A stretch of 41,920 nucleotides of DNA from Erysipelotrichaceae bacterium (GTDB lineage: Bacteria > Bacillota_I > Bacilli_A > Erysipelotrichales > Erysipelotrichaceae). The notes beneath the pieces are model-generated. The model was not told the origin of the DNA. It saw nothing but the letters and a program-made list of their open reading frames with translations, and made no database searches. How positions within the stretch are numbered: the first letter of the stretch is position 1; each line of letters starts with the position of its first letter. This document shows, piece by piece, positions 10,211 through 28,569 of this stretch. A program made the translations under genes and the position numbers. The DNA is taken from assembly GCA_017431405.1 (NCBI GenBank), contig JAFRLB010000066.1, forward strand, positions 1-41,920. The letters run 5' to 3'.

Positions 10211-10762
10211 ATGCAAAATGACAGCGTTTTGTATAATGAATTTTTAGCTGGCAATACTTCCTCTTTTGACGAACTGATGATCAGATATGGTGACAATCTG
10301 ATGTATTATCTCTACGGTTATGTTCATAACCTTGAAGATGCTGAAGACCTGATGATCGAGGCATTTGCCAGAATCATGGCTAAGAAGCCTTCCATTAGTG
10401 AGGGAAGTTTTAAGGCGTACCTGTTCAGAACAGGCAGGAATCTTGCCGCCAGATTTCATCTCATTAAAAGCAGGATGAATGTTTTCAGCATGGACAGTCT
10501 GCCTGTAGAGTTATCTGATCATAAATCTGTTGAAACTGAACTGTTAAACGAAGAGAAAAAAAGAATACTGCATTTGTGCCTGGAAAGAATTGATCCGGAA
10601 GTAAGAGAAGCCATCTGGCTGGTATATTTTGAAGAAATGAGCTACGCTGCAGCAGGAGAAGTAATGGGTGTGAAAACAAAGAGAATTGACAAGCTATTAA
10701 CAAGAGGAAAGAAACTGCTCAGGGAAGAACTTCTTAAGGAGGGCATAACTGATGCTCACTGA
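10211..10762 (+). CDS. ECF-type sigma-70 family RNA polymerase sigma factor
   Basis: 183 residues, typical for group IV sigma factors. Region 2 is about 15-80 (FDELMIRYGDNLMYYLYGYVH, then DAEDLMIEAFARIM). Region 4 is about 120-175, with a helix-turn-helix (MSYAAAGEVMGVKTKRIDKLLTRGKKLL). A GAAAGGA ribosome site precedes the ATG. Its stop overlaps the start of the following small membrane protein by 11 bases, implying translational coupling, as is usual for an ECF sigma and its membrane anti-sigma. The gene upstream is unrelated. Target promoters are unknown, and no self-type GAAC/CGTC promoter was found in front of it, unlike the second sigma gene at 23999. Confidence 0.88.
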   Translation: MQNDSVLYNEFLAGNTSSFDELMIRYGDNLMYYLYGYVHNLEDAEDLMIEAFARIMAKKPSISEGSFKAYLFRTGRNLAARFHLIKSRMNVFSMDSLPVELSDHKSVETELLNEEKKRILHLCLERIDPEVREAIWLVYFEEMSYAAAGEVMGVKTKRIDKLLTRGKKLLREELLKEGITDAH

Positions 10763-11036
10763 TAAGCAGCGAATAAACCAGAAAAATGCTGAAGCGAGGT
10801 TACTTGGAATGCGAGTAACAGTTCTGACAGCCGGGTTATTATTTGTGATTATGGTTGGTTTGGGATTGCCTGCAGTCAGTGATGTTGACAGTTCAATAAC
10901 AGTGCAGGGCATGCTGGCAAGTATATTTGCTTATAATAAATACATGGGGTATGTTGTAGTAATTGTCATTGCCGCACTGGCTGGAATATGCGTCGGGGCA
11001 ATATGTTATTACGTTAAAAAGAAGAATAGTCTCTGA
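10752..11036 (+). CDS. Small two-helix membrane protein coupled to the ECF sigma gene (candidate anti-sigma)
   Basis: 94 residues: a charged N-terminal cytosolic segment (1-22), a membrane helix (about 23-41), an external loop (42-63), a second helix (about 65-87) and a KKKNS tail. The start overlaps the sigma gene by 11 bases. The position is that of an anti-sigma factor, but the cytosolic part is very short and contains no zinc-binding or ASD motif that I can see. It shares layout and the ending Y-V-(L/V)-V-x-V-I ... KKK with the next protein, suggesting a duplicated pair. Function is inferred from context only. Confidence 0.7.
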   Translation: MLTDKQRINQKNAEARLLGMRVTVLTAGLLFVIMVGLGLPAVSDVDSSITVQGMLASIFAYNKYMGYVVVIVIAALAGICVGAICYYVKKKNSL

Positions 11037-11086
11037 TGACAGGGGAATTACTCAGGAATCTGTATCTTAATAGGTAGAGAGGACTG

Positions 11087-11389
11087 ATGAGCATGAGAAC
11101 TACTGAAGAGAGAAAGATTTCTATGTATAGAAGAGCCAGAGAAATCAGCGAAAAGACATCAGCCAGAATCATTAATTTATCATTATTGAATCTGGTAGTT
11201 CTTTCCACAGCGCTCATACTGTTCATTGCTCATCTGGATAACGAGGTATTCGATCCCGGTGAAATACAGTTCAGAGGTTCGTTCATTCTGTCTGGTTCAT
11301 CCGGGGGATATGTACTGGTTGCCGTCATAAGTTTCATAATAGCGACGGTCCTAACCTACTATTTCATGAAAAAGAAGAAAATCAAGTAA
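11087..11389 (+). CDS. Second small two-helix membrane protein of the ECF locus
   Basis: 100 residues: charged N-terminus (1-27, rich in Arg/Glu), membrane helix (about 28-47), external loop (48-72), second helix (about 73-93), and a KKKKIK tail. The layout and the second helix (GYVLVAVISF) match the preceding 94-residue protein (GYVVVIVIAA), so the two are probably paralogues. An AGAGAGGA ribosome site allows either ATG 11087 or ATG 11093. It ends at a strong terminator, so the three-gene unit sigma-membrane-membrane closes here. No recognised family. Confidence 0.7.
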   Translation: MSMRTTEERKISMYRRAREISEKTSARIINLSLLNLVVLSTALILFIAHLDNEVFDPGEIQFRGSFILSGSSGGYVLVAVISFIIATVLTYYFMKKKKIK

Positions 11390-11409
11390 GCCAAGTGCTT
11401 ACTTTTTTT
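11384..11409 (+). terminator. Intrinsic terminator closing the ECF sigma unit
   Basis: An 8-bp perfect stem (AAGTAAGC with GCTTACTT) with a 5-base loop is followed by TTTTT. The stem begins inside the last codons of the preceding gene and includes its stop codon. Confidence 0.85.
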
Positions 11410-12537: not shown

Positions 12538-15500
12538 ATGAGAAAGAAAATTCTTATTACGATCCTGGGGGTATTACTTTCCATCCCGTTATTCTCTGTG
12601 AATACGGTATTTGCCATGGGCAAGAGCATCCAGGCAATTAACGACATGGGACAGATAAGTAATAATGGCCCAAGATTAGTAATTCCTTATGGCGAAGAGG
12701 AAGGCTACGTTTATTACGGAGCCAGTGGCATCAACATCATACATGGTGATGAGACGGCTCGCCTGGAAACATATTTTGAAGTATTAAAGCTGATCAGTGT
12801 TTCAGACATTAACAATGATGGCTACACTGATTTTTTAACGTACCAGAAAGCACCTGACTTTGCCGGTCAGTTACTGGTAATAGACGGTTTAAACGGCAAC
12901 GTTCTTTCAACACTGCAGTTTACCAGAGAAGGCTATGATGAAAACCTTGGTTTCATTAATACCAACAGCTACATCCAGCAGATGGTTGACTTAGGCAATG
13001 GTGAAGCCCTGATCGTTTATGACTATAACATAGCCAAGGTAAACCTTTTAAGCGGTGAGGTTTTATTTACTTTTACGGAAACAGATAATATCTGGGATGT
13101 TGTTGTAATAGATGACATTGATGGTGATGGTTTAAGTGAGATAGCTTACAGTGGCCAGCAGAATGTTGTCGGTGTCATTTCCGGTGCAGACGGTACTGCT
13201 TTGAAAACATACAATCCAACAACCAACAGAACAATAACCTTAACCTGGGATGACAGACAGTCTTTTGAAGCTGTAATGAACTGCTGGGATGTCGAATATA
13301 TTAACGGTAAGCTCTTTGCCACTACTGAGGATGGTTTACTTGTTTCATTTGATTTAATGACTGATGAAATGACTTCAGCTTCAATTTCCGTCATGGATGA
13401 AGAGATGTTCAATCAGACATTGCAGAGATGGCTCAACTGGATCGACGGTACAATTACCTACATGATAACAGGTGTAAACAGATGGCAGTACATGGGTTAT
13501 AAGATCGTAGATCATAATGAAAACTATCTTCTTATTGACGCCTTCCTGGGTGATTTGAATTCCGTTTCACAGTATCAGGACAGTACTTACCCGGCCAGAG
13601 TAATCGTTTATGATTTATCAACCAATGAAGTTGCTTCTAAGATATCACTGGATAACTTTGGCTGCATGTATGAAAAGACCTGTTTCGGCATCTTTGAAGA
13701 ACAGCCATGTGTAGCCACAGTTAACTATACCGAAAAGGGACTGGCCAAGATGGCTTTATACAGCTTAAGCGGTGAGTTACTGCTTCAGCATGACCTCAAA
13801 CTGGACATTGTTGATTTTGGTAAGAAAATTGAACTTTCATGGACCGGGGAAAATTACATATTGGAAGTATTAAACAGCGGAACAGTAAATGTATCAGCTG
13901 ACTTAAGCGAAACAAGTTACTGCTACGACAGTATTACTTCAAGCTTATTAAAGGTATACGGTGACAGAATGACTGTCCTGTACAGTACTAACGGTACAAA
14001 GGACAAGATCGTTCAGTATGATAAAGATTTAAGTACAGTCTTATGGGAATTCAATGTTGATAAGGACTTTAAGAACAAGGGGCTGGAATTCATCAGAACA
14101 GACATTGATTATGACAGAGATGGTGAAGAGGACATCTTGGCCATCGTGAACTGTTATGACAAGAATGATGCAGCTGTATACAGTAACTTCATCATTGTTT
14201 CTTCAAAGGGTGAAGTAATAAGAAATAAGAATGTCGTTACCAATTCATATTGGTATCAGGGCAGTAAGGTTTATGAATACCTTGTTTCAACAGAATTCGG
14301 TGTATTGAATGATACCAATGATGACGGCATCTACGAACTGTTATGCGGTGATACGATCATCACCAGTAAGAGCAATACCGTTATCGGTTCAACCAGTGCC
14401 TATCTTGATGCCAAGGGCAGTCAGTACAAGATCGGTGACATCAATGGCGATGGCGTATCAGACATTCTGTTAATGACGGAAACTGAAGGCAGGATCTACT
14501 TATCAAGAGTTGCCTACAGTTATGGCTACATTCAGACAGATTACCGTAAGACAAATACAACCATGAGCCTGGATAAGACTCTGGAACCTTTACTTACAAC
14601 AGTAATAATTGATGACATCAACAATGACGGTGTCAAGGAATTAGGCATGATCGACCGTAATGATAACGGCTTTGAGATATTCAAGATCGTTAACGGGGCA
14701 ACATTGGAGAAAATGTATGACCTGTGTCCTGATGGCATTAATGAAGATGGCGAGGCATTCAAGCCGTTAAGCTATGACATTAATGGCGATGGCTATAATG
14801 AACTCTATGGCCGTGATAACTGGCAATATGGCATTTATGACGGTAAGACCGGTGCCTTACTGGTTAATTACACTGAATGGGTAAATGAGGGTGAATACTA
14901 CAGTGATGAATATCATCCAACTTACAATGTTCCATTCTATGTAATGGATGAAGAGCCAAGATTCATTGTTACTGAAATTGATGGGGTTAAGACAGTAGCC
15001 TTTACCAGATCAAGATATGACAGAGAGGCCAGAGAAGACAAGACTTACATTTCCATGTGGAGTGGCGAGAACTTCGAAAATGAAGAAACAGTTCCGCTTG
15101 TAAGAAATAATGACGGCAGTCTTGGTACACTGCGTTCAATTGAAAACAGTAATGGTTATGCATTGCTTACCTTACAGGATTCAATATCAATAGTTGACTT
15201 AAAGAATAAGTCAATGCTGGCAAAGTATGCCGTTACAGCCAAGAGCGGTTATCAGTTTGATGAGAATACCATTCTGGTTGTAAATAATGAAGATGTTCTT
15301 TATAAACTTGATACTCAGAACAGTTTCACTGTTACTTCTGCTGTTCCAGAGACAACGGATAATTACATTTTGCATCTGTCCTGGGAAGACTCACAGGATT
15401 ACAGTGTCATGACGATTTATGATAATGACAGAGCTGTATACAGCGGTTCAGACAAAGAGGCAGACATTAAGCTGATTCAGGGTGATCACAGAATCATGTT

Positions 15501-15684
15501 ATCCATGAATGACGGTCAGGGTAAGAGTTATCAGGAAACCTATAATGTTACCGTTGCCCCACAGCCGGTAAATTACATCTGGATGATTGCGGTGGCTGTA
15601 GTATTAGTGATAATCGCCTTCATGTTAGGCAGGTATCAGAAGATTGCAATTAACCGTAAATACAGAAAGGAGGCTTCAAAATGA
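12538..15684 (+). CDS. Large secreted, membrane-tethered FG-GAP/VCBS-like repeat protein
   Basis: 1048 residues. Signal peptide at 1-26 (cleavage likely after VFA). The body is a beta-propeller-like repeat protein with seven DxDxDG-type calcium-binding loops starting near residues 91, 193, 522, 592, 634, 693 and 747 (for example DINGDGVSDILL and DINNDGVKELGM), interspersed with PQQ/propeller-like strands. A membrane helix at about 1018-1036 (YIWMIAVAVVLVIIAFMLG) and a basic tail anchor it. It starts 5 bases after dus and overlaps the ABC ATPase start by 4 bases (ATGA), so it is almost certainly made together with the transporter. It could act as an extracellular sensor or substrate-binding part of the transporter, which is inference. 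I know no named family for the full architecture. Confidence 0.8.
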   Translation: MRKKILITILGVLLSIPLFSVNTVFAMGKSIQAINDMGQISNNGPRLVIPYGEEEGYVYYGASGINIIHGDETARLETYFEVLKLISVSDINNDGYTDFLTYQKAPDFAGQLLVIDGLNGNVLSTLQFTREGYDENLGFINTNSYIQQMVDLGNGEALIVYDYNIAKVNLLSGEVLFTFTETDNIWDVVVIDDIDGDGLSEIAYSGQQNVVGVISGADGTALKTYNPTTNRTITLTWDDRQSFEAVMNCWDVEYINGKLFATTEDGLLVSFDLMTDEMTSASISVMDEEMFNQTLQRWLNWIDGTITYMITGVNRWQYMGYKIVDHNENYLLIDAFLGDLNSVSQYQDSTYPARVIVYDLSTNEVASKISLDNFGCMYEKTCFGIFEEQPCVATVNYTEKGLAKMALYSLSGELLLQHDLKLDIVDFGKKIELSWTGENYILEVLNSGTVNVSADLSETSYCYDSITSSLLKVYGDRMTVLYSTNGTKDKIVQYDKDLSTVLWEFNVDKDFKNKGLEFIRTDIDYDRDGEEDILAIVNCYDKNDAAVYSNFIIVSSKGEVIRNKNVVTNSYWYQGSKVYEYLVSTEFGVLNDTNDDGIYELLCGDTIITSKSNTVIGSTSAYLDAKGSQYKIGDINGDGVSDILLMTETEGRIYLSRVAYSYGYIQTDYRKTNTTMSLDKTLEPLLTTVIIDDINNDGVKELGMIDRNDNGFEIFKIVNGATLEKMYDLCPDGINEDGEAFKPLSYDINGDGYNELYGRDNWQYGIYDGKTGALLVNYTEWVNEGEYYSDEYHPTYNVPFYVMDEEPRFIVTEIDGVKTVAFTRSRYDREAREDKTYISMWSGENFENEETVPLVRNNDGSLGTLRSIENSNGYALLTLQDSISIVDLKNKSMLAKYAVTAKSGYQFDENTILVVNNEDVLYKLDTQNSFTVTSAVPETTDNYILHLSWEDSQDYSVMTIYDNDRAVYSGSDKEADIKLIQGDHRIMLSMNDGQGKSYQETYNVTVAPQPVNYIWMIAVAVVLVIIAFMLGRYQKIAINRKYRKEASK

Positions 15685-16628
15685 GTGAATATTGCATTGA
15701 ATTAAACAATGTTACCAAGACATTCGGTAAATTCACCGCTGTTGACAATGTCAACATCAAGCTGGAGCCTGGCAAGGTTTATGGTTTCGTTGGTCCTAAT
15801 GGTGCCGGTAAGAGTACCACGATGGCCATCATCATGGGAACCTTGTTCCCAACCAAGGGAAACGGAAAGGTATTCGGACATCCTTTAGCTTCACCAGAGG
15901 CTTTGAAGGTATTAGGTTATTCACCAGAATTTACAAGCTTCTATTCCGATATGAACTGTATCGAATACTTATATTACATGGCAACACTTGCCGGCTTAAG
16001 CAGTGATGAAGCCATTAAACGTACAAATGAATTACTGGATCAGTTTGACCTTAAGCAACATGCCAACAGAAGAGTTGCCAAATTCTCAACCGGTATGAAG
16101 AAGAAAGTCTCACTGGCGCAAGCCATGATCCACAGACCAAAGGTACTGTTATTGGATGAACCAACAGCTAACCTTGATCCAACCAGCCGTCAGGAAATAC
16201 TGGATACGGTAAGAAAGATGGTTGAAGAGGAACATCTGACTGTATTGATCAGTTCACATGTATTAACCGAACTGGAAACGATCATTAATCATGTCATCAT
16301 GATCGATCACGGTCACATCATTCTTGATGCCCCGATTCACGAGGCTCAGGAAAAGTTCAAGCAGGGCATCCTGATGGTAGATACAAGTAATAACGACCAG
16401 CTGTTAAGTGAATTAAACGGACGTTATGAATACACCCTGGAAGAGGGAAACATCAGATTCGCAACTGTTGAAATGGAACAACTGAAGAAAGATATCGTAT
16501 CAATAGTATTCAACAGTCAGCTGACACTTAACATGTTGAAGGAAGAAGTCCTGTCACTTGACTCACTGTATAAGCAGATAATGGAAGGAGAAAAGAGCGA
16601 TGAAGGTAATATTCAAAAGAACGCTTGA
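15681..16628 (+). CDS. ABC transporter ATP-binding protein (ABC-2 exporter type)
   Basis: 315 residues. Walker A GPNGAGKST (about 37-45), signature FSTGMKKKVSLAQ (about 135), Walker B VLLLDEPTANLDP (about 155-167), and the H-loop in LISSHVLTELE. A C-terminal extension of about 90 residues follows the nucleotide-binding domain, as in CcmA/NatA-like subunits. Start ATG 15681 overlaps the stop of the repeat protein by 4 bases, and its end overlaps the permease start by 29 bases, so the three are translationally coupled. The substrate is unknown; the gene set (ATPase, permease, propeller-type surface protein) recalls export or lipid-remodelling systems but does not fix the cargo. Confidence 0.93.
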   Translation: MSEYCIELNNVTKTFGKFTAVDNVNIKLEPGKVYGFVGPNGAGKSTTMAIIMGTLFPTKGNGKVFGHPLASPEALKVLGYSPEFTSFYSDMNCIEYLYYMATLAGLSSDEAIKRTNELLDQFDLKQHANRRVAKFSTGMKKKVSLAQAMIHRPKVLLLDEPTANLDPTSRQEILDTVRKMVEEEHLTVLISSHVLTELETIINHVIMIDHGHIILDAPIHEAQEKFKQGILMVDTSNNDQLLSELNGRYEYTLEEGNIRFATVEMEQLKKDIVSIVFNSQLTLNMLKEEVLSLDSLYKQIMEGEKSDEGNIQKNA

Positions 16629-17520
16629 AGAAACGCTTAAGATCTCTTCAATTATCATTGTCATAGCTGCCAGTGCATTAGGCGGATACATCTTAGCCCG
16701 TAACAGCGGATATTCAACCGTACCGGCCTTTCAGTATTACCTTAACGGCATTCTGATCCGCCAGCACGTTGTAGTATTCTTCTTAGTAAATGGAGCAGTG
16801 TTAATGACCATTGTCAGTTCCATATCTTCCGGTTTGATAGCTGGGGAGGTACATGACGGTACATTAAGAATACTGATCACCAAGCCTAATTCAAGAAGTA
16901 CCATCCTGATGGCTAAAATCTTAGGCATGATAACAGGCTGCAGCATCCTGATGTTCTTAGGACTGACAGTTCTCTACATATCTGAATTAGTGTTCGGCAA
17001 TTTTGACGGTAACATCGTAAAAGGTTTGTTACACTACCTGCCTGCTTACATCATCTATGGTTACATTGTCATGTTCTTCTTCAGCTCACTTGGCGTATTG
17101 TTAAGCTGTGTGGCCAAGAGAAAGGTAATTGCCTTATTACCGTTACTGGTAATCGTAATCATGATATTAGGCTTACCTATCATTGTCAGAATCACAATGG
17201 AACTGTCCGGCAATGGCGGCATGGCTTCAAAAGTCTATGCCGTAGACATGAACTATCACTTTGGTTCAATGTTCAGATGGTGCTGTGACTTATTTGGCGG
17301 CATACACGGTACTTCCAACCAGCTGGATATAACAAGCATCTTAATGAATGCATTCAGTACAATGACGATTGACATGGATCTTACCAGAAGTGATTCATCT
17401 TCATCACTTACGGTTGCGAATGATGTAATACCGGCAATATACATTCTGATCGTCTATCTGTTACTGATCTGCATTAACTATGTGAGCAGTTTCATCATAA
17501 TCAGAAAGAAAAATGTTTAA
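16600..17520 (+). CDS. ABC-2 family transporter permease
   Basis: 306 residues with six hydrophobic segments (about 12-30, 53-78, 102-128, 140-165, 170-192, 278-300) and a large external loop between segments five and six (about 195-277). The region SSGLIAGEVHDGTLRILITKPNSRS is typical of ABC-2 permeases between helices 2 and 3. GGAAGGAG lies just before the ATG at 16600, inside the ATPase gene. It pairs with the preceding ATPase; the operon ends at a UUCG-loop terminator 5 bases after the stop. Confidence 0.88.
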   Translation: MKVIFKRTLEETLKISSIIIVIAASALGGYILARNSGYSTVPAFQYYLNGILIRQHVVVFFLVNGAVLMTIVSSISSGLIAGEVHDGTLRILITKPNSRSTILMAKILGMITGCSILMFLGLTVLYISELVFGNFDGNIVKGLLHYLPAYIIYGYIVMFFFSSLGVLLSCVAKRKVIALLPLLVIVIMILGLPIIVRITMELSGNGGMASKVYAVDMNYHFGSMFRWCCDLFGGIHGTSNQLDITSILMNAFSTMTIDMDLTRSDSSSSLTVANDVIPAIYILIVYLLLICINYVSSFIIIRKKNV

Positions 17521-17614: not shown

Positions 17615-18979
17615 ATGGACACAAAGTACATCGGCAATAAGAAGTTCTATGCGAACGTTTCCAGATTAGCCATTCCAAGCATGCTTCAGCAGCTGTTATC
17701 AAGTGCCATGGGCATGGTAGATACCATGATGGTATCAGCCATTGGCATGGTTACTCCTGTAGGCATTGCTTCAAAGATAGGCAATATCTGTAACTGCGTG
17801 TCCTTTGGCGTAATGGAAGGAACCGGCATTTACGCTTCCCAGTTCTTCGGTGCCGATGATAAGAAAAATCTGCAGAGAACCTTTGGCTTATCGATCATAT
17901 TAAACCTGGTTGTGGGAATGTTATTTTTTGCGGCCATCATGTTTTTTAATACAGCCATTATCCATTTCTATGTTTCAGACTCAGAGGCTATTGCCAATGC
18001 CAAAATCTATCTTGATCTGGTTAAGTGGTCATATCCGTTAACCACCTGTGCTTTAGCCTTTAACTATTTCTACAGATGCATACACAAGACATCCGTATCA
18101 ATGTGGATCGGCATCATTTCAATGTCAGTAAACTGTCTGGTAAACTACATTCTCATTTACGGTAAGCTTGGCTTTGCCCCAATGTCAGTTGCCGGTGCAG
18201 CCTGGGGCACGGTAATTGCTCAGATCGTTTCAATTACTCTCTACATGAGTTATTCTCTGATAACCAGACAGCCATTCTTAGGTAAGCTTTCCACAATGCT
18301 GGACATCAAACCATTCTTCTTTAAGAAGGTCATGATCAGAACCTATCCTACGATCATTAATGAAACACTGTTTGGCTTTGGAACATCTTTATATGTTAAG
18401 GCATATGCATTACTTGGTACAAAGGTTACCGATGCCTATTACGTTGCCAATACGATTACCAACATGTTCTTCTCAGTATGCAACGGCATGTCCGTTTCCG
18501 GCAGTATGATCTTAGGTGCCGAACTTGGTAAGGGTGATGTAGAAGAAGCCGTCAAGCAGAGCCGTTGGTTCCTCTATCTGGGGATTGCCTTATCAGGAGT
18601 ATTAGGCATAATCATCATTGGCGCATCAAATATATTAGTCAGTCTGTTTAATCTGAGTGACCCTTCAGTTGTTCAGTTATCAAGAGGCATTGTAAGGGTA
18701 TCAGCCGTAAGAGTTGCCCTAAGAATGATTGTCGTTGTCATATTCTCTTCCTTAAGAGCTGGCGGCGATTCAAAGTTCTTAATGTTACTGGATTGCGGCA
18801 TTGTCTGGTGTGTTGGCATCCCATTACTGTATGGACTGATTCTTGTCTTACAGTTACAGGACTTTGTATCTATTTACTTACTGGCTCAATTGGAACTGGT
18901 GGTAAGAATACTGATTGGCATGCGCCGGTTTACATCTAACCGCTGGGCAGTCAACCTTACAACGGAATTAAGCAATTAA
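17615..18979 (+). CDS. MATE-family multidrug/metabolite exporter
   Basis: 454 residues, about 12 membrane helices, with the internal two-fold layout of MATE proteins. Landmarks: LAIPSMLQQLLSSAMGMVDTMM near the start, GTGIYASQFFGADD (about 70-83), and YYVANTITNMFFSVCNGMSVSGSMILGAELGKG in the second half. MATE proteins export organic cations or drugs by Na+ or H+ antiport; the substrate cannot be told. It is monocistronic, bounded by its own promoter and terminator, with an AGAGGG ribosome site. Confidence 0.93.
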   Translation: MDTKYIGNKKFYANVSRLAIPSMLQQLLSSAMGMVDTMMVSAIGMVTPVGIASKIGNICNCVSFGVMEGTGIYASQFFGADDKKNLQRTFGLSIILNLVVGMLFFAAIMFFNTAIIHFYVSDSEAIANAKIYLDLVKWSYPLTTCALAFNYFYRCIHKTSVSMWIGIISMSVNCLVNYILIYGKLGFAPMSVAGAAWGTVIAQIVSITLYMSYSLITRQPFLGKLSTMLDIKPFFFKKVMIRTYPTIINETLFGFGTSLYVKAYALLGTKVTDAYYVANTITNMFFSVCNGMSVSGSMILGAELGKGDVEEAVKQSRWFLYLGIALSGVLGIIIIGASNILVSLFNLSDPSVVQLSRGIVRVSAVRVALRMIVVVIFSSLRAGGDSKFLMLLDCGIVWCVGIPLLYGLILVLQLQDFVSIYLLAQLELVVRILIGMRRFTSNRWAVNLTTELSN

Positions 18980-19067: not shown

Positions 19068-22000
19068 GTGTTTTGGAAAATTCTGGGTATAGAACCAACA
19101 ACTAATAAGAGAGAAATAGACAGGGCTTACCGTGAAAAACTGGTCAATACGAATCCTGAGGATAAGCCTGAAGAATTCATGGAACTTCGTAATGCGTACG
19201 AAGAAGCTTTAAGATACCTGGAAAGTCAGAAATCAGAATCCACTGAAGAGAAAACAGCCTTACAGTTATGGAGAGATAAGCTTTCAGACATCTATGCTGA
19301 TTTTAAGAAGAGAAATTCAGTTGATGAATGGAAGAAACTGATGAATGAAGACATCTGCCAGACCATAGATACAAGAATGATGGCGGAAGACGAACTGTTT
19401 AAGTTCCTGATGGACAATTACTTCATTACTCATGATGTCTGGGTCTATCTTGATGAAGAGTTTCATTTCGTTGAACGACAGGAAGAACTGTCAGAACGTT
19501 ATCCAAGAGACTTTGTTGAATATGTACTGGTAAACGGTGTTTCCTATGGTGATACCTTACCTATGAACATGTTCATTCCCGGGGTAGATGGAGAATGTTG
19601 TCAGAAGTATCTGGGAATTTATCTTAAGGCCCGTAAGGCTAACGGTGAAGAGGCTAAGAAGTCAATTGATGAAATGCTCAGCCTGCCTGAGCAGCACCCT
19701 TACGGTAACGCAATTGCCTTATCATATCAGATATTCTTTGAAGACAAAAACAAGATCAATGATCTGATCGAATTACAGAAGCAGTACAGTGATGACACCT
19801 TCATTGCCCTGGTTTTAATAAACGAACTGTTTCATTTGGGGAGATATGAAGAAGACATTCAGATCTGTGAACAGTTATTACAAACCCATCCTGACCACGG
19901 CCAGTTAAAGTGGCAGTATGCCATGGCTTTAGCTGAAACCGGTAAGAATGAAGAAGCCATAACCCAGTTAAATGATCTGTTAAGAAATGCCGGTGGCGAC
20001 CAGCAGAACATTTATGAAATAGACATGAAGAGAAGGGAACTGAGTCTGAAGGTAATAGAAGAGAAGAAGGCCAAGCTGGCTGAAAATCCTGATGACGATG
20101 AAGTAAAGATCGATCTTGCCTGGGCTTATCTGGAAAACTATCAGGATAAGGAAGCTGAGGAAGTAACCAGAACCTTGAGGAAGGAAAATGTTGACGCATT
20201 TAACTACTATAACTTAATGAGCAACATTGCCTTCAGTTTTGAAAGATATGATGAAGCACTGGAAGATCTTAATCAGTTAATAGAAACAATTAAGAATCTG
20301 CCGGAAGATGGCGATGCGGATACCAGAAAGAAAAAAGGCCGACTTGGGGAAATGTATGGCCGTCTTGGCTATTACTATTACGTATTAAAAGACAATGAGA
20401 AGTCCATGGAAGCCTATGAAATAGCCTTGAAGACAGCTAAGGACAAGGCGTCAATTATTACTCAGTTATGTCAGGGCGCATTAAAGGAGCGCAATTACAG
20501 TAAGCTTGTTGAGTACGCCAAAATGTTACTTAAGGAAAAGCCTGATGCCTATCATGCATATCTTTTCCTTGGTTACGGTTACTATTATCAGCGCTATGAC
20601 AATGAAGCGTTTGATGCGTTAAATCGCGGTCTGGATCTATGTAAGACAGATCTGGAACTCTACATCTTGAAGATCAGAGTCCTCATCAATAACAAGGCTT
20701 ATCCGGAAGCTAAGGAAATAATTGATTTCCTGCTTAACAATAAGCTTGAAGATGATCCATCCGTTCAGTTTGTTGAAGGCCTTTACCAGCAGTTTGCTGA
20801 AGGGAATGAAGATAAGGCCATTGAAATGTATGAGAAGGCCGATGAAACACTTGGAGAAAATGCTGTTAACTTTACCTTTACTGATGAAATGTATTACCGT
20901 TTACTGTGCTTGAAGGGTGATAAGTTAAATGCTGGTGAACAGGCCGACAGAGAACAGATGCTGAAGATAGCTGAAAAGGGTCTGGCGGTAAATCCGAATT
21001 ACTATGGCTTATTGGACTATAAGGCCTGGGTACTTACCAGAGGCAAGCAGTACGATGAAGCTCTGGAAATATACATGAAACTATTGGATAACCCAAGACA
21101 CGGTCCGGCAATTGAAGCCCAGATCGGTTACATATACTATCAGGATCTGAAACATAAGGCGGATCAGTCATTACAGTACTATCTGAAGTCACTTGAAAAT
21201 GGCGGTGATTATGCCGGTCATTTCTATGCGGGCATGTGTTACATGTACATGGGTGATCTTGATAATGCTGAGAAGCATTTCAACATCTTACAGGAAAACG
21301 AACCTAAGGAACTGGACAGCTATTACCGCATGAGTTTCATTAACGAAATGAGGTTCGATAATAAGGAAGCCTTAAGAAACATCAATAAGACAATTGGCAT
21401 CATAAACATGCGTGAAGGCAATCAGTCTTATTATTACTACCGTAAGGTTCAGATTCTAAGAAGAATGGGTAATGTTGAACAGGCTGTTGAAACAGTCAGA
21501 GAAATGCAGAACAGATACAATATCAGCTACGCTGATAAGCTTATCTGTGAAATATATTTCCAGTTCGGCATGTTTGAGGAAGCTCAGAAACATCTTAAGG
21601 CCTGGAAAAAGAGACGCAATGATGCGGAATCCAGATTCAATTGTGAAATAACTCTGGAGATGCTGAAGAATAACATGTTCATGGCTAAATTGTCCAAGGC
21701 TAATGTTGATAACCTCCTTAATGCCAACAGACGTGTGGAACTTGACTGTCTGTTTGCCCGTAATAACGGTAAGTTCAGCAGAGAAGTAAAGTTACTGGAA
21801 AACTGGTTGAAAGAAGAAGAGCAAAAAGAAAACGGTGACTTATCCAGAATATATGGAACTTTGTCTTATGCTTATTTCCATCTCGGTGATCATGATAAGC
21901 AGCTGTATTACGCCAATAAAGCTCTGGAAGTGTTGGATGAAAAATTAAATGAGTACGGTTTGTCTCAGCTCTTATACCTGACCAGAAAGGCCAGAGCACT

Positions 22001-22238
22001 GGCATTAGCTGACCGTAAGGAAGAAGCTTTGGAACTGGCTGAAAGATGCCGTAAGCATCCACTATGCGAAGACTGTCCATACCACAGCTGTAAGGACATG
22101 GATCTTTATGAAGCAGAGATGGAAGAAATATTCGGCAATGAGGCAAAGGCTCTTGAACTTATGGAAAAGGGAAATGAAAAATGGCCTGATGAAGAAGAAT
22201 TTGTCGTTGCCAAAAACTTTATGAAAAAGAAGGTATAG
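19068..22238 (+). CDS. Very large J-domain/TPR protein, partner of the adjacent Hsp70 (GTG start)
   Basis: 1056 residues. Residues 1-52 resemble a J domain (FWKILGIEPTTNKREIDRAY, then PEDKPEEF and LRNAYEEAL), but the HPD tripeptide is replaced by NPE, so stimulation of Hsp70 in the usual way is uncertain. Residues from about 200 to 1040 are made of many helix-turn-helix repeats of TPR type (for example AYEIALKTAKDKA, YLFLGYGYYYQRYDNEAFDALNRGL, AHFYAG-like turns), plus a late Cys-rich spot (CRKHPLCEDCPYHSC, about 1008-1022). No signal peptide: cytosolic. The GTG at 19068 has AGAGG 8 bases upstream. It ends 3 bases before hscC. Probably a client-binding scaffold for that Hsp70; the role is inferred. 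Confidence 0.85.
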   Translation: MFWKILGIEPTTNKREIDRAYREKLVNTNPEDKPEEFMELRNAYEEALRYLESQKSESTEEKTALQLWRDKLSDIYADFKKRNSVDEWKKLMNEDICQTIDTRMMAEDELFKFLMDNYFITHDVWVYLDEEFHFVERQEELSERYPRDFVEYVLVNGVSYGDTLPMNMFIPGVDGECCQKYLGIYLKARKANGEEAKKSIDEMLSLPEQHPYGNAIALSYQIFFEDKNKINDLIELQKQYSDDTFIALVLINELFHLGRYEEDIQICEQLLQTHPDHGQLKWQYAMALAETGKNEEAITQLNDLLRNAGGDQQNIYEIDMKRRELSLKVIEEKKAKLAENPDDDEVKIDLAWAYLENYQDKEAEEVTRTLRKENVDAFNYYNLMSNIAFSFERYDEALEDLNQLIETIKNLPEDGDADTRKKKGRLGEMYGRLGYYYYVLKDNEKSMEAYEIALKTAKDKASIITQLCQGALKERNYSKLVEYAKMLLKEKPDAYHAYLFLGYGYYYQRYDNEAFDALNRGLDLCKTDLELYILKIRVLINNKAYPEAKEIIDFLLNNKLEDDPSVQFVEGLYQQFAEGNEDKAIEMYEKADETLGENAVNFTFTDEMYYRLLCLKGDKLNAGEQADREQMLKIAEKGLAVNPNYYGLLDYKAWVLTRGKQYDEALEIYMKLLDNPRHGPAIEAQIGYIYYQDLKHKADQSLQYYLKSLENGGDYAGHFYAGMCYMYMGDLDNAEKHFNILQENEPKELDSYYRMSFINEMRFDNKEALRNINKTIGIINMREGNQSYYYYRKVQILRRMGNVEQAVETVREMQNRYNISYADKLICEIYFQFGMFEEAQKHLKAWKKRRNDAESRFNCEITLEMLKNNMFMAKLSKANVDNLLNANRRVELDCLFARNNGKFSREVKLLENWLKEEEQKENGDLSRIYGTLSYAYFHLGDHDKQLYYANKALEVLDEKLNEYGLSQLLYLTRKARALALADRKEEALELAERCRKHPLCEDCPYHSCKDMDLYEAEMEEIFGNEAKALELMEKGNEKWPDEEEFVVAKNFMKKKV

Positions 22239-22241
22239 AAA

Positions 22242-23948
22242 ATGCTTGTAGGAATAGATTTAGGAACAACTAACAGTCTGGTTGCCTGTTATAAAGACGG
22301 CAAGGTGGAAATAATACCAAACCGTCTGGAAAAGAAACTGACACCGTCTGTTGTGGCTGTTGATGATGATAATAACATTCTGGTAGGTGAAACTGCCAGA
22401 GAATACGGTTATCTGAACCCGGAAAGAAGTGCTAAGGTTTTCAAACGCTCAATGGGAACAGATAAGGTATATGAACTGGGAGACATGAAGTTTGATTCTG
22501 AAGAACTCTCAGGTTTTGTTCTGCGTTCCTTAAAGGAAGATGCTGAAGTATACATAGGTGAAAAGGTAGAAGAAGCCATCATATCAGTTCCGGCTTATTT
22601 TAATGATAATCAGCGGAAGGCTACTAAAAGAGCAGGGGAACTGGCTGGTTTAAATGTCACAAGAATCATTAATGAACCAACTGCCTCAGCGTTATCGTAT
22701 GGCGTTGGTGATTCCGGCAAGATGGAAAGATGCATGGTATTTGATTTAGGTGGCGGTACTTTTGATGTTACGATTCTTGAATACTATAAGAACATCATGG
22801 AGGTATATGCCATAGCCGGCGACAATTTCCTAGGCGGTGAAGACTTTACACATGTATTAATGGAGATGTTCTTAAGGAGAACCTATCTTCCAATCACCAT
22901 GCTGGATATAAAGAGCCTTAACAATGTCTATAAGGCAGCCGAGCATTGCAAGTGCAGTTTTTCGGAAAGTGATACAGCCAAGATGACTGTAAACATTGCC
23001 GGGCAGTATTTTGAAGAAACCTTTACCATTGAAGAATATGAAGAAGGCTGTAAGGAATTACTGGAGAAGCTAAGAAAGCCGATAGAAAAGAGTCTGCGTG
23101 ACGCCAAGATAACACTTGATGAGTTGGACCGAATCATTCTGGTTGGTGGGGCAACAAAGCTGTCAATTGTCAGAAACTATGTTCAGAAGATCACAGGCAT
23201 CGTACCTGAATTCTGCGTTGACCCTGATACCTCCGTAGTTGTCGGGGCAGCCTTACAGTGTGCCATGAAACAGCGTGACAAACAGATTGAAGAAGTTATA
23301 CTTACTGATGTATGCCCGTTTACTCTGGGAACTGAGGTAGTCAAGTTTAACGGTACATTTGAAGAATCAGGTCATTACCTGCCAATCATTGAAAGAAATA
23401 CCGTAATACCTGTAAGCAGAAAACAGACCGTTTATACTGCTTATGATAATCAGAAATATGTAACGGTAAAGGTATTGCAGGGTGAAAGCAGGCTTGCCGT
23501 AAATAATCTGTTATTAGGTGAACTGTCAATTGACGTACCTGCCGGACCTAAGGGCAGGGAAGCCATTGAAATAACCTATACATATGATGTCAACTCATTA
23601 CTGGAAGTTGAAGTACTGGTAGTTTCAACCGGTCTGAAGAAAAAGGTAATTATTCAGAATCAGGAAAACAAGATTTCTGAAGAAGAAGCCGAAAAGCGTT
23701 TTGAAAGATTACAGTATCTGAAGCAGAATCCAAGAGATGATGAGGAAAATACGCTGGCCTTGTTGAGGGCTAACAGAATGTTTGAGGAAACTCTTCGACC
23801 TGATCAGGAAAAGATCGGAGAAGCCATTGATGAGTTCAACAGAGCAATGAACACCGCAACCAGACTGGAAGTTGAAAATTTCAGAAGAAAGCTTCTGGAA
23901 CTCCTTGATGAAATAGAAAATAAGAATTTTACAGGTTTAATGGCATAA
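22242..23948 (+). CDS. hscC: HscC-type Hsp70 chaperone
   Basis: 568 residues, shorter than DnaK and close to E. coli HscC. ATPase domain 1-365: GIDLGTTNS (4-12), INEPTASALSYG (about 145-156), VFDLGGGTFDVT (about 166-177), and LVGGATKLS (about 301-309). The substrate-binding part begins with VILTDVCPFTLG and IIERNTVIPVSR, which match HscC closely; the helical lid is reduced (about 470-568). It sits 3 bases after the J-domain/TPR gene, so the two form a chaperone pair. E. coli HscC is reported to interact with sigma-70 and to work with membrane J proteins; here the next gene is a sigma factor. No grpE is adjacent. Confidence 0.92.
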   Translation: MLVGIDLGTTNSLVACYKDGKVEIIPNRLEKKLTPSVVAVDDDNNILVGETAREYGYLNPERSAKVFKRSMGTDKVYELGDMKFDSEELSGFVLRSLKEDAEVYIGEKVEEAIISVPAYFNDNQRKATKRAGELAGLNVTRIINEPTASALSYGVGDSGKMERCMVFDLGGGTFDVTILEYYKNIMEVYAIAGDNFLGGEDFTHVLMEMFLRRTYLPITMLDIKSLNNVYKAAEHCKCSFSESDTAKMTVNIAGQYFEETFTIEEYEEGCKELLEKLRKPIEKSLRDAKITLDELDRIILVGGATKLSIVRNYVQKITGIVPEFCVDPDTSVVVGAALQCAMKQRDKQIEEVILTDVCPFTLGTEVVKFNGTFEESGHYLPIIERNTVIPVSRKQTVYTAYDNQKYVTVKVLQGESRLAVNNLLLGELSIDVPAGPKGREAIEITYTYDVNSLLEVEVLVVSTGLKKKVIIQNQENKISEEEAEKRFERLQYLKQNPRDDEENTLALLRANRMFEETLRPDQEKIGEAIDEFNRAMNTATRLEVENFRRKLLELLDEIENKNFTGLMA

Positions 23949-23998: not shown

Positions 23999-25237
23999 AT
24001 GAAGAGTTTTGAGGCATTAATACAGGAAAACATAAAGAGCATTGAAACCTATGTAAGATACAGGGTAGAAGCTAAGGCTGATGGTGAAGACATACTGCAG
24101 GATGTCTTAATGCAGGCGTTTAGGAGTTTTGATGATCTGGAAAATGAGGAATCATTTAAGCCATGGCTCATCAGCATTGCCCGTAATAAGGTCAATGACT
24201 ACTACCGTAAGAAGGCAAGAATACTTGAATTGCCACTTGATGAAGATGTTCAGTATGTTTCTCTCAACCGTACCATTAATTACGCAGTTTATGAAACACT
24301 AAATAAACTTACTGACATTGACCAGAAGATCCTGTACATGTACTTCTGGCAGAACATGTCAGTTAATGAAATGGCAGAAAGACTCAACATTCCACCTGGA
24401 ACAGTAAAGTCACGGTTACATAATGCCCGTAAGCACTTCAAAGATAACTATCCTGAGGAGGAATTGAGAATGAGTAAAATGCCAGCAATAATGCCTGAAT
24501 ATGTCATCAGAAAAACAGATAAGGAACCGTTTGAAACAAAATGGGAAGAGTTAATGGGCTGGTTTCTGATACCTAAGGAAGGCAATAAGCTTAAATGGGG
24601 TATGTATGATTACCCGGAAAAAACACTCACTGAGCAGTTCGAAATGAGCTGTAAGGGACAGACGGAAATACATGGTATAAGAGGAGTAAAAGTCAGGGCA
24701 ATTGAGAAGGCTGGAAAAAATACTCTGGAAAGAAACTTCATTGCCCAGCTGACGGATACTCACTGCCGTTATCTTGCTGAGTCACATGAGGAAAATGGGG
24801 TTGAGAAAGTGTTTACTTTCCTTGATGGGGAAGCTTTCCTGAATAACTGGGGATTTGGACCTGAAAACATAGGGAATGAAACAAACCTTAAATGCAGGGG
24901 ATTAATTATCAGAGATAATGATAAGATAACTTGTGACAGTGGCAGGGAAGTAATGGATGTTGTCGGAAGATACGAAGTAACAATAAACAACAGAACTTAT
25001 GATACGGTATGTCTGATGGATATCGGCAGTTATGATGAAAACACCATTTCTGAACAGTATATTGATTCCAATGGCAGAACTGTTTTGTGGCGTCGCTTTA
25101 ATAAGAGCAACTGGCGCTGGAACTTTGATCATCATGAAGAAATTCTTGATGATAAATTAAAAGGTAATGAAACAATTACGGTTAACGGGGTAGTGTGTTA
25201 CCACTGGTATGATTGTATTACTGATTATGTTATTTAA
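23999..25237 (+). CDS. ECF-like sigma factor fused to a C-terminal domain of unknown function
   Basis: 412 residues. Region 2 is about 5-75 (DGEDILQDVLMQAFRSFDDLEN, then WLISIARNKVNDYYRKK). Region 4 is about 98-150 (DQKILYMYFWQNMSVNEMAERLNIPPGTVKSRLHNARK). Residues 158-412 form an extra domain, mostly beta-strand-like, with aromatic and acidic residues and many Asn/Gly turns; no known fold recognised, no membrane helix and no zinc motif. Fused ECF C-terminal domains often regulate the sigma in cis, so it may sense a ligand. An ideal ribosome site (GAGGAGGA, 24455-24462) 7 bases before the in-frame ATG at 24470 (Met158) could make the C-terminal domain as a separate protein. Preceded by an ECF-type promoter. 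Confidence 0.85.
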   Translation: MKSFEALIQENIKSIETYVRYRVEAKADGEDILQDVLMQAFRSFDDLENEESFKPWLISIARNKVNDYYRKKARILELPLDEDVQYVSLNRTINYAVYETLNKLTDIDQKILYMYFWQNMSVNEMAERLNIPPGTVKSRLHNARKHFKDNYPEEELRMSKMPAIMPEYVIRKTDKEPFETKWEELMGWFLIPKEGNKLKWGMYDYPEKTLTEQFEMSCKGQTEIHGIRGVKVRAIEKAGKNTLERNFIAQLTDTHCRYLAESHEENGVEKVFTFLDGEAFLNNWGFGPENIGNETNLKCRGLIIRDNDKITCDSGREVMDVVGRYEVTINNRTYDTVCLMDIGSYDENTISEQYIDSNGRTVLWRRFNKSNWRWNFDHHEEILDDKLKGNETITVNGVVCYHWYDCITDYVI

Positions 25238-26129: not shown

Positions 26130-27347
26130 ATGAAATCAGAATACCCTTTTACATTGATGATCAAACCTGTTGGTTCAACATGTAACATGCAGTGCAGGTA
26201 CTGTTATTACATTGATAACGAAGCCAGCAGGCACGCTGTTATGGATGAAGAACTATTGGAAGAAGTAATCAGAAATTACTTTGCCAGTACTCCTGGACCA
26301 ATAGTTTCTTTCATATGGCATGGTGGAGAACCGATGTTAAGAGGGTTGTCTTTTTATAAGAAAGCTGTTGAATTACAGAAGAAGTATTTGCCTCAAGGCT
26401 GGCAATGCTGGAACAACCTGCAGACAAACGGTCTGTTAATGAATGAAGAGTGGTGCAGATTTTTAAAGGAAGAACATTTTGATGTCGGCATCAGTATTGA
26501 TGGTACCAGGTTTAATCATGATTATTATCGAATCGATAAACAGGAAAACCCGACATACGATAGAATAATAACTAATATTAAACTTCTTCAAAAATATGGC
26601 ATACAGCCTGATCTGCTCTGTACGGTAAATGATGAAACATCACAGAGTCCTTATGAAGTATATGAAAGCTTAAAGAAACTAAATACCGGATGGATGCAGT
26701 TCATACCGGTAGTAAATAAGGATGAAGAAGGGAATGTTGTTGGTCAGTCAGTAGATTCAAGGCAGTACGGTGAATTTCTTAAGACGATATTCAATCAGTG
26801 GCTTTTCAATGACCTGGGTAAGACGAATGTTCAGCTTTTTGCGGAAATGCTGAATGTCTATGCCGGAGGTTATCAGACGGTTTGCTGGTTATTGCCGGAA
26901 TGTGGCAAGGTGCTGGTTGTGGAAAGTGATGGGAAAGTATATTCCTGCGATCACTACGTAAATGAAAATCATTGCCTTGGCAGTATTAAAGAAATGACTT
27001 TTGGCGAAATGATGAACGGCAGCCAGCAGGTTTCCTTTGGCAAAGCCAAACGTAATCTTAATGATAAATGCTTGAATTGCCGTTATTTAAAGATCTGTAA
27101 CGGTGGCTGCCCGAAAGACAGAAATAAGGATAACTATAATTATCTTTGTGATGGCATGCTTGAACTTTTCAATTATGCGGACAGCTATTTAAATGAAACT
27201 GTCAGACAGTTGAAAAATGGCAAAACCCCTGATGCCATAATGAAATCACTCAAAAACATTAGACTGGAAAAATGGGGCAAAATTTCACCTAATAGCTTAT
27301 GTCCATGTGGCAGTGGGCGAAAATTTAAACATTGTTGCGGGAAATGA
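26130..27347 (+). CDS. Radical SAM/SPASM protein, anaerobic sulfatase-maturase-like, with SEC-C tail
   Basis: 405 residues. Radical SAM cluster motif CxxxCxxC at Cys18, Cys22 and Cys25. The auxiliary-cluster (SPASM) region about 250-350 contains CGKVLVVESDGKVYSCDHYV and the CxxCxxxxxCxxxC spacing in CLNCRYLKICNGGC. The last 20 residues form a SEC-C zinc motif (CPCGSGRKFKHCCG). Overall it resembles anSME, which converts a Cys or Ser of sulfatases into formylglycine under anaerobic conditions. No sulfatase gene lies in this window, so the substrate must be elsewhere or be different. It follows the hydrolase with no gap and no obvious ribosome site of its own, suggesting coupled translation. Confidence 0.9.
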   Translation: MKSEYPFTLMIKPVGSTCNMQCRYCYYIDNEASRHAVMDEELLEEVIRNYFASTPGPIVSFIWHGGEPMLRGLSFYKKAVELQKKYLPQGWQCWNNLQTNGLLMNEEWCRFLKEEHFDVGISIDGTRFNHDYYRIDKQENPTYDRIITNIKLLQKYGIQPDLLCTVNDETSQSPYEVYESLKKLNTGWMQFIPVVNKDEEGNVVGQSVDSRQYGEFLKTIFNQWLFNDLGKTNVQLFAEMLNVYAGGYQTVCWLLPECGKVLVVESDGKVYSCDHYVNENHCLGSIKEMTFGEMMNGSQQVSFGKAKRNLNDKCLNCRYLKICNGGCPKDRNKDNYNYLCDGMLELFNYADSYLNETVRQLKNGKTPDAIMKSLKNIRLEKWGKISPNSLCPCGSGRKFKHCCGK

Positions 27348-27530: not shown

Positions 27531-27558
27531 TTAGATAGTAGATAGTGTGGTGATAATA

Positions 27559-28569
27559 ATGTTTGGTAATTCAATATATGTCTCTGACATTGAAGATGAC
27601 ATTATATTAAATAAGGATAGTGACATTTATTTTACTTCTTTTCATATTGCCGAGGAATTTAATGATTCTTTTAAGGATAAGGCAATCAGATTATTAGAAG
27701 CACTCAAACGGAATAATAAGAAGGTAATAGCGGACTTGTCGCCAAGAGGATTAAAGTTTCTGGGTTATGACAGCCTGGAAAAGCTGGTTAAGGATTACTG
27801 CATTGATTACATAAGGTTTGATTTTGGCTTCAGTGAAGAAGAAATAATAGAAGCCAGTAATTATTGTGGAATCGTAGTTAATGCGTCCACAATAGAGCCT
27901 TCATTTGTCAAAAAGCTGAAAGGTGATGTCATAGCCATACATAATTATTATCCAAGAAAGGAAACCGGTCTTGACTGGGGTTATTTCAGAGAGAGAAACA
28001 AGGAACTGAAGGCACTGGGCATAAAGACAGGAGCTTTCATTGCGGGTGATGAAAAGAAAAGAGGACCTCTATTTGAAGGATTACCGACATTGGAAGAGCA
28101 CCGTTTATTAAAACCTTATGTGCAATACTGTCAGCTAAGAGACGAAGTAGATCTGATCTTAACCGGTGACAGTGGGCTATCAGAATATCAGCAGAAGCTC
28201 ATAACTGAAAGTGTAAAGAATGACGCAATAATGTTGCCTGTATATATAAATAAGGAATATGAGTATTTATATGGAAAGCTATTTACAAACAGACCAGATG
28301 CCCCATTCTGGCTGGTACGTGTCAAGGAATCAAGGGAGTATGCCTCAGCAGGTGAAAAAATACCTGCTAAGAGTTATGCCTTGCCTAGAAACAGAGGAAC
28401 AATAACAATTGATAATGAAAAGTACTTAAGATATTCCGGTGAGATCCAGATAATGAAGGAGAATTTTGAGGCTGATGAACGAGTTAATGTCATAGGGCAC
28501 ATTAACGAAGGATATGAAAGCATTTTAGAGTGCATCAGCAGGGGTAAAAAGTTTATTTTCACAAAATAA
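27559..28569 (+). CDS. mupG: MupG/DUF871-type 6-phospho-N-acetylmuramidase
   Basis: 336 residues from ATG 27559 (a GTG at 27547 in the same frame overlaps the GTGGTG ribosome-like site). Family landmarks of DUF871/MupG: HNYYPRKETGL near the middle, GAFIAGDEKKRGPLFEGLPTLEEHR, and a small C-terminal barrel domain. A related MupG from Staphylococcus cleaves MurNAc-6-phosphate-GlcNAc taken up during wall recycling. That the specificity is the same here is inference; the usual partners (murQ, PTS permease, murR) are not in this window, and the gene appears monocistronic between its own promoter and terminator. Confidence 0.85.
   Translation: MFGNSIYVSDIEDDIILNKDSDIYFTSFHIAEEFNDSFKDKAIRLLEALKRNNKKVIADLSPRGLKFLGYDSLEKLVKDYCIDYIRFDFGFSEEEIIEASNYCGIVVNASTIEPSFVKKLKGDVIAIHNYYPRKETGLDWGYFRERNKELKALGIKTGAFIAGDEKKRGPLFEGLPTLEEHRLLKPYVQYCQLRDEVDLILTGDSGLSEYQQKLITESVKNDAIMLPVYINKEYEYLYGKLFTNRPDAPFWLVRVKESREYASAGEKIPAKSYALPRNRGTITIDNEKYLRYSGEIQIMKENFEADERVNVIGHINEGYESILECISRGKKFIFTK

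Follow-up and report, generated by a model that had tools for sequence, protein, structure and literature searches.

Do a large beta-propeller protein and the ATP-binding cassette (ABC) transporter encoded directly behind it work as one machine and, if so, of which kind? The question is raised by three overlapping genes in a 41,920-nucleotide stretch of DNA from an Erysipelotrichaceae bacterium (GCA_017431405.1, contig JAFRLB010000066.1, positions 1-41,920, forward strand), here called the window. The three genes, referred to below as the trio, are:

12538..15684, + strand: double beta-propeller protein of 1048 amino acids (aa), predicted to be exported (open reading frame [ORF] list, FG-GAP Pfam match, model, homologues)
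15681..16628, + strand: ABC ATPase of 315 aa, DrrA/ABCA-like, with intact Walker A, Walker B, signature and H motifs (ORF, Pfam)
16600..17520, + strand: ABC-2 permease of 306 aa, PF12679, with a NosY-like fold (Pfam, model, fold and profile comparison)

NosDFY, which serves copper delivery to nitrous oxide reductase, is the best-studied ABC-2 motor working through an external repeat protein. Its third subunit, NosD, is a large external repeat protein folded as a beta-helix. With moderate confidence we propose that the trio is a NosDFY-like envelope ABC machine acting outward, in which an integrin-like double propeller would replace the beta-helix as the external partner.

The three ORFs, their lengths and the overlaps of 4 base pairs (bp) between the propeller and ATPase genes and 29 bp between the ATPase and permease genes, as first read from the sequence, agree with the ORF coordinates. 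A GGAGG or AAGGAG site resembling a Shine-Dalgarno sequence lies ~7-10 bp 5' of each of the three starts.

The propeller profile was searched against 315 genomes of the order, of which 26 matched and 25 were accepted; G269 was dropped (E 8e-4, positions 20-117 only, in a 2313-aa frame). Neighbourhoods were inspected in 24 of the accepted genomes plus the window itself. The gene order propeller, ATPase, permease was present in 23 of the 25, that is, in all 23 with contigs reaching far enough, and in the remaining two the contig runs out, in G002 after the ATPase begins and in G064 within the propeller gene. The propeller gene is incomplete in two of the 23, being split between contigs in G249 and falling into three ORF pieces in G075. 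The permease profile matched 41 of the same 315 genomes, and the 23 matching at E ≤ 1.4e-79 were exactly the 23 trio genomes; the other 18 matched weakly (E 1e-8 to 9e-4), none of them with a propeller match.

Beyond the order, a class-level sample of 395 genomes gave 15 propeller matches, of which 11 were accepted and four dropped (G172, G383, G676, G679; short matches, E 9e-5 to 7e-4). The neighbourhoods of G383, G676 and G679 contained no ATPase or permease profile match. Also dropped was G479 (E 4.6e-4), in which the ORF and its neighbours resemble purine biosynthesis by eye. Eight accepted genomes lie outside the order, seven in family f19, where the propeller matched in seven of eight genomes examined, and one in family f11 (G771), where propeller and ATPase genes are followed by the contig end. 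Nine complete trios were found outside the order, all in one family (G445, G514, two each in G637, G658 and G659, and G661), and G455 holds a propeller fragment only, at a contig end. The G676 (L149) and G679 (L150) matches, short and weak, fall in propeller-like ORFs of ~1010-1030 aa which probably belong to an unrelated propeller family.

The 32 complete trios (23 in the order and nine outside) retain their order down to ~17-25% identity of the propeller protein, and because the flanking genes differ between clades the trio is itself a conserved unit. Among the 315 genomes, neither a propeller protein standing alone in most relatives nor ABC genes with a different partner was found: the ABC genes adjoin wherever the contig allowed, and strong permease matches occur in propeller genomes only. 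The sequence-only reading supposed one complex; that the genes form one functional unit is strongly supported by this co-occurrence and gene order. Distribution within the order is patchy (25/315 genomes), and the named carriers are Erysipelotrichaceae metagenome-assembled genomes, mostly ruminant, together with Thomasclavelia cocleata and T. saccharogumia. A plasmid-borne element was considered and rejected, as tblastn with the propeller protein as query returned nothing at E ≤ 1e-3 from 72,556 plasmid records. No description of the trio was found in the literature by title or abstract, a search whose coverage excludes most subscription papers.

Which of the ABC subunits the propeller protein is coupled to is suggested by an array in G659 (L147:4066-14913 and L148:102-7734), located within a division and wall gene cluster. 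Here, a propeller-permease pair occurs three times, followed by propeller-ATPase-permease, which makes four genes each for propeller and permease and a single ATPase gene. No second ATPase came up in a six-frame profile search of the array, and the profiles used on it were built without its sequences. On the simplest reading, each propeller protein of the array goes with one permease, and the ATPase is common to the permeases. Since the propeller-permease pairs persist without an ATPase of their own, the coupling appears to be of propeller to permease and not of propeller to ATPase. The array is bordered by murD and ftsW, and NCBIfam places mraY upstream of it and murG and murB downstream; genes further out resemble ftsA and ftsZ by eye only. 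This location, in a single case, hints at a wall or division role.

The external partner itself can be divided as follows:

12538..12618, + strand: signal-peptide-like N-terminal segment, residues 1-27, without cysteine (hydropathy and sequence)
12652..13911, + strand: propeller 1, residues ~39-458, resembling the 8-bladed propellers BamB and Tako8 (VIA-align Z ~21-24)
12805..14793, + strand: span of the seven DxDxDG/DxNxDG loops (motif search with shuffle control)
13975..15357, + strand: propeller 2, residues ~480-940 (approximate bounds), FG-GAP/integrin-like, with the most conserved DxDxDG loops (model, profile match)
15367..15555, + strand: membrane-proximal beta-sandwich, residues ~944-1006 (strand pattern of the model, conserved G982)
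15574..15630, + strand: C-terminal transmembrane helix, residues 1013-1031, with a basic cytoplasmic tail after it (hydropathy, model)

The loops, at residues 90, 193, 524, 592, 634, 693 and 747, number seven, against a maximum of 2 and a mean of 0.09 across 2000 composition shuffles. The motif count bears out the seven loops of the sequence-only reading, and its signal peptide and C-terminal anchor agree with hydropathy. A hydrophobic N-terminal segment and a C-terminal helix with a basic tail fit a protein that is exported and C-terminally anchored. Judging from the motif, the loops may bind calcium.

An AlphaFold2 model built on a 12-row family alignment (mean predicted local distance difference test [pLDDT] score 80.7, predicted template modelling [pTM] score 0.67) has beta strands throughout, a strand-only domain at 944-1006 and a last helix at 1013-1039. 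By the model, the protein consists of two beta-propellers and a membrane-proximal beta-sandwich, for which "Ig-like" would be a tentative name. The "giant external propeller" of the sequence-only reading is thereby refined to two propellers. FG-GAP_3 and FG-GAP were above the gathering score in Pfam, and a profile of 17 divergent members matched, over its positions 648-828, the propeller of integrin alpha-V (E 4.7e-9), which is why the second half is read as a propeller of the FG-GAP/integrin type; both of its hallmarks, FG-GAP blades and DxDxDG loops, are present. Residues invariant across the 17 members include D592, D596, D634, D693, D747 and D751, all in loops of propeller 2. In propeller 1 the loops are less conserved and an N-x-W motif (184, 186) is invariant.

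The other two proteins combine a PF12679 permease (ABC2_membrane_2, 60.8 bits, gathering score 27.2) with an ABC_tran ATPase (99.8 bits, gathering score 25), which is the make-up of an ABC-2 transporter. Walker A, signature, Walker B and H-loop motifs are conserved in 11 ATPases. Against solved structures, the ATPase profile matched ABCA lipid transporters at E 5e-81 and NosF at E 3e-45. The permease model, built from 21 sequences (pLDDT 80.4, pTM 0.81), returned NosY entries in all of the top 11 Foldseek rows; by VIA-align, NosY (7znq_Y) aligned with Z 22.0 and a root-mean-square deviation of 3.5 over 257 aligned residues, and the next family, ABCG25, with Z 17.7. When the permease profile was run against PDB sequences, nothing but NosY matched at E ≤ 1. 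A type VII (FtsX/MacB) permease was rejected, with NosY first in the fold search and ABCG-type exporters next.

One part of the permease is a candidate for contact with the propeller protein:

17209..17433, + strand: loop of 75 aa, residues 204-278, joining the last two membrane helices (longest non-membrane stretch)

The loop would be extracellular if the EHxGT coupling helix lies inside. Two of its residues, D258 and D260, do not vary among 12 divergent permeases and a third, D216, hardly varies, and we propose the loop as a candidate docking site for the propeller protein.

Between the window and G007, a close species, the ratio of nonsynonymous to synonymous substitution rates was 0.064 for the propeller gene, 0.027 for the ATPase and 0.065 for the permease, and by this measure all three genes are under purifying selection. 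Mean pairwise difference in 29 of the 32 trios, leaving out G006, G075 and G249 (propeller shortened, broken and split, respectively), came to 0.755 in the propeller protein and 0.702 in the permease, against 0.516 in the ATPase. Distance matrices of the same 29 trios, uncorrected for shared ancestry, correlated with r 0.925 (propeller-permease), 0.898 (propeller-ATPase) and 0.937 (ATPase-permease). The propeller protein and the permease, presumed to meet on the outside of the membrane, have both diverged fast and in step, in contrast to a conserved ATPase. Much of the correlation follows from common descent, and the pattern is therefore no more than consistent with contact.

The machine that we favour would work as follows. 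Permease and ATPase would form an ABC-2 motor of the NosFY type, with a dedicated external partner made up of two calcium-loop propellers, a beta-sandwich and one membrane anchor. The propeller protein would rest on the permease from outside, probably at its conserved 75-residue last extracellular loop, and ATP-driven opening and closing of the permease would pass a substrate outward to it. Alternatively, the motion of the permease would change the state of the propellers and so enable them to work on some target on the cell surface, a proposed mode of action of NosFY on NosD as well. That the three proteins form a physical complex, that the propeller protein docks on the permease, that calcium is bound and that the action is directed outward is what we infer. 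A more far-reaching version, which we regard as a speculative and rather unlikely extension, is an envelope machine not described before, whose ABC-2 motor drives a double propeller of integrin-like type that depends on calcium and works from the cell surface in wall or division processes; one lineage would have expanded it, within the division gene cluster, into paired propeller-permease units sharing one ATPase, and hence into a modular system with interchangeable external heads.

Several observations weigh against a NosDFY-like machine. In G075 (L074), the broken propeller gene lies beside an intact ATPase and permease while near relatives have intact copies, which may mean that the propeller protein is dispensable, that its gene is decaying or that the assembly is at fault. 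The sequence match of the permease to NosY is weak (E 0.0016), and the propeller protein had no NosD family match in Pfam or NCBIfam at E ≤ 1. Since it is closer to the ABCA lipid transporters than to NosF, the ATPase gives no pointer to copper or NosDFY chemistry. Further, the high distance correlations are expected from common descent alone.

The immediate surroundings of the trio in the window are:

10211-11389: upstream of dusB and the trio, an extracytoplasmic function (ECF) sigma factor (183 aa) and, after it, small hydrophobic proteins of 94 and 100 aa
11519..12532, + strand: dusB, ending 5 bp before the trio, a probable operon neighbour
17615-18979: multidrug and toxic compound extrusion (MATE) exporter, 94 bp beyond the end of the trio

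Because of the 5-bp gap and a terminator-like site upstream of dusB (11384-11404), dusB and the trio probably share one transcript in the window genome. A promoter scan gave 17 sites against 19.9 expected. Within the order, dusB lies upstream of the trio in just two genera (g1, g26); neighbours elsewhere include dusB, a ligA-like gene and other housekeeping genes, with names except dusB assigned by eye. The ECF sigma factor and the small hydrophobic proteins are a possible sigma/anti-sigma set, and sigma-like genes precede dusB in the window and G007 and the trios of L122 (G514) and L145 (G658). A MATE gene near the trio was seen in the window, G007 and G254 alone, the one in G254 (L079) being distant, and a conserved MATE partner was rejected on this ground.

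Further downstream, a 1056-aa protein with a DnaJ domain and tetratricopeptide repeats is followed after 3 bp by a 568-aa Hsp70-like protein (19068-23948), possibly a dedicated chaperone pair. A 412-aa protein (23999-25237) has sigma-70 regions 2 and 4 within its first ~150 residues and, beyond them, a long C-terminal part with no family assigned. A radical S-adenosylmethionine protein with a SPASM domain and a C-terminal SEC-C motif (26130-27347) and a MupG-type 6-phospho-N-acetylmuramidase of wall-sugar recycling (27547-28569) were also identified.

The main rival of the NosDFY-like reading, although an unlikely one in our view, is mechanotransmission without transport, in which ATP hydrolysis would move the propeller protein and thereby activate an envelope enzyme such as a wall synthase or hydrolase, as in FtsEX. 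The G659 array between murD and ftsW speaks for it, as does an external part which is very large and lacks the fold of a substrate-binding protein. However, such a location occurs in one genome only, the other trios lying beside dusB, ligA-like and other housekeeping genes, and the permease is of the ABC-2/NosY-like kind and not type VII. FG-GAP/integrin-like blades also occur in adhesion proteins, and the propeller protein could act separately as an adhesin or scaffold which merely shares the operon; given the 23 of 23 informative genomes, the nine further trios, the strict co-occurrence with one permease subfamily and the propeller-permease pairing maintained in the G659 array, we find this improbable.

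Equally little weight can be given to a defence or detoxification pump whose propeller protein senses or sequesters an antimicrobial. The patchy distribution, the MATE exporter that follows the trio at 94 bp in the window, with one also in G254, and the ECF sigma factor upstream would suit such a role, but the MATE genes are not conserved neighbours and the sigma genes appear not to be. A known anti-phage defence system was rejected, as the propeller protein and permease matched no PADLOC family at E ≤ 0.01 and the ATPase matches generic ATPase models. A lesser rival than mechanotransmission, and a poor prospect overall, is an importer for which the propeller protein would serve as receptor of a metal or chelated compound, as proposed for PedA1A2BC and lanthanides. 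The Pseudomonas PedA1A2BC operon combines permease, ATPase, YVTN propeller protein and substrate-binding protein and is needed for lanthanide-dependent growth (Wehrmann et al., PMC6839425). The combination of propeller protein, ATPase and permease is what recommends this importer; against it, no substrate-binding protein gene adjoins the trio in the window, the ATPase falls under the TIGR03864 cut-off and the propeller protein lacks a match to a pyrroloquinoline quinone (PQQ) propeller family.

Compared with known systems, the propeller protein resembles integrin alpha-V in propeller 2 by sequence profile and BamB in propeller 1 by fold, and EMC1 tops the Foldseek list for the whole model; these are resemblances of fold only, with whole-model TM-scores of ~0.2. 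Similarity to the GldA/GldF gliding transporter is below threshold for both ATPase (202 of 402.6 bits) and permease (37.6 of 288.5 bits), and the trio differs in having no GldG and in belonging to a different phylum. With FtsEX and other type VII systems the trio shares an ABC motor tied to extracytoplasmic action and, in one array, a place in a division and wall cluster, whereas its permease is PF12679, with NosY and ABCG and not FtsX/MacB as nearest folds.

PedA1A2BC, of the TIGR03864 group, is alike in having a propeller protein, an ATPase and a permease in one operon. It differs in a YVTN propeller, where the trio has two FG-GAP/integrin-type propellers with DxDxDG loops, and in a separate substrate-binding protein, where in the window dusB and the MATE gene border the trio instead. 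The trio ATPase reaches 165.9 bits against a TIGR03864 cut-off of 302.25 (NCBIfam), and no YVTN or PQQ propeller model matched the propeller protein at E ≤ 1 in Pfam or NCBIfam, where only FG-GAP families were above cut-off.

The likeness to NosDFY lies in a separate ATPase and in a permease for which NosY is nearest in the PDB by both fold and sequence. The differences are an external partner made of two membrane-anchored propellers and not a beta-helix, and an ATPase closer to ABCA proteins than to NosF; no copper, nitrous oxide reductase or denitrification gene was present among the window neighbours identified by hidden Markov models. As the trio lacks defining features of both the PQQ-associated ABC group and NosDFY proper, it is classed as an ABC transporter with an external repeat-protein partner. 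Transporters of this general kind are already known; "unfamiliar", as the sequence-only reading had it, is apt for the family and not for the arrangement, which has precedents in NosDFY and PedA1A2BC. The Thomasclavelia carriers are named gut bacteria open to experiment, and a concrete hypothesis on wall assembly follows from the array in the division cluster. If the trio works like NosDFY, the principle would be a more general one in which the motor is constant and the outside tool varies.

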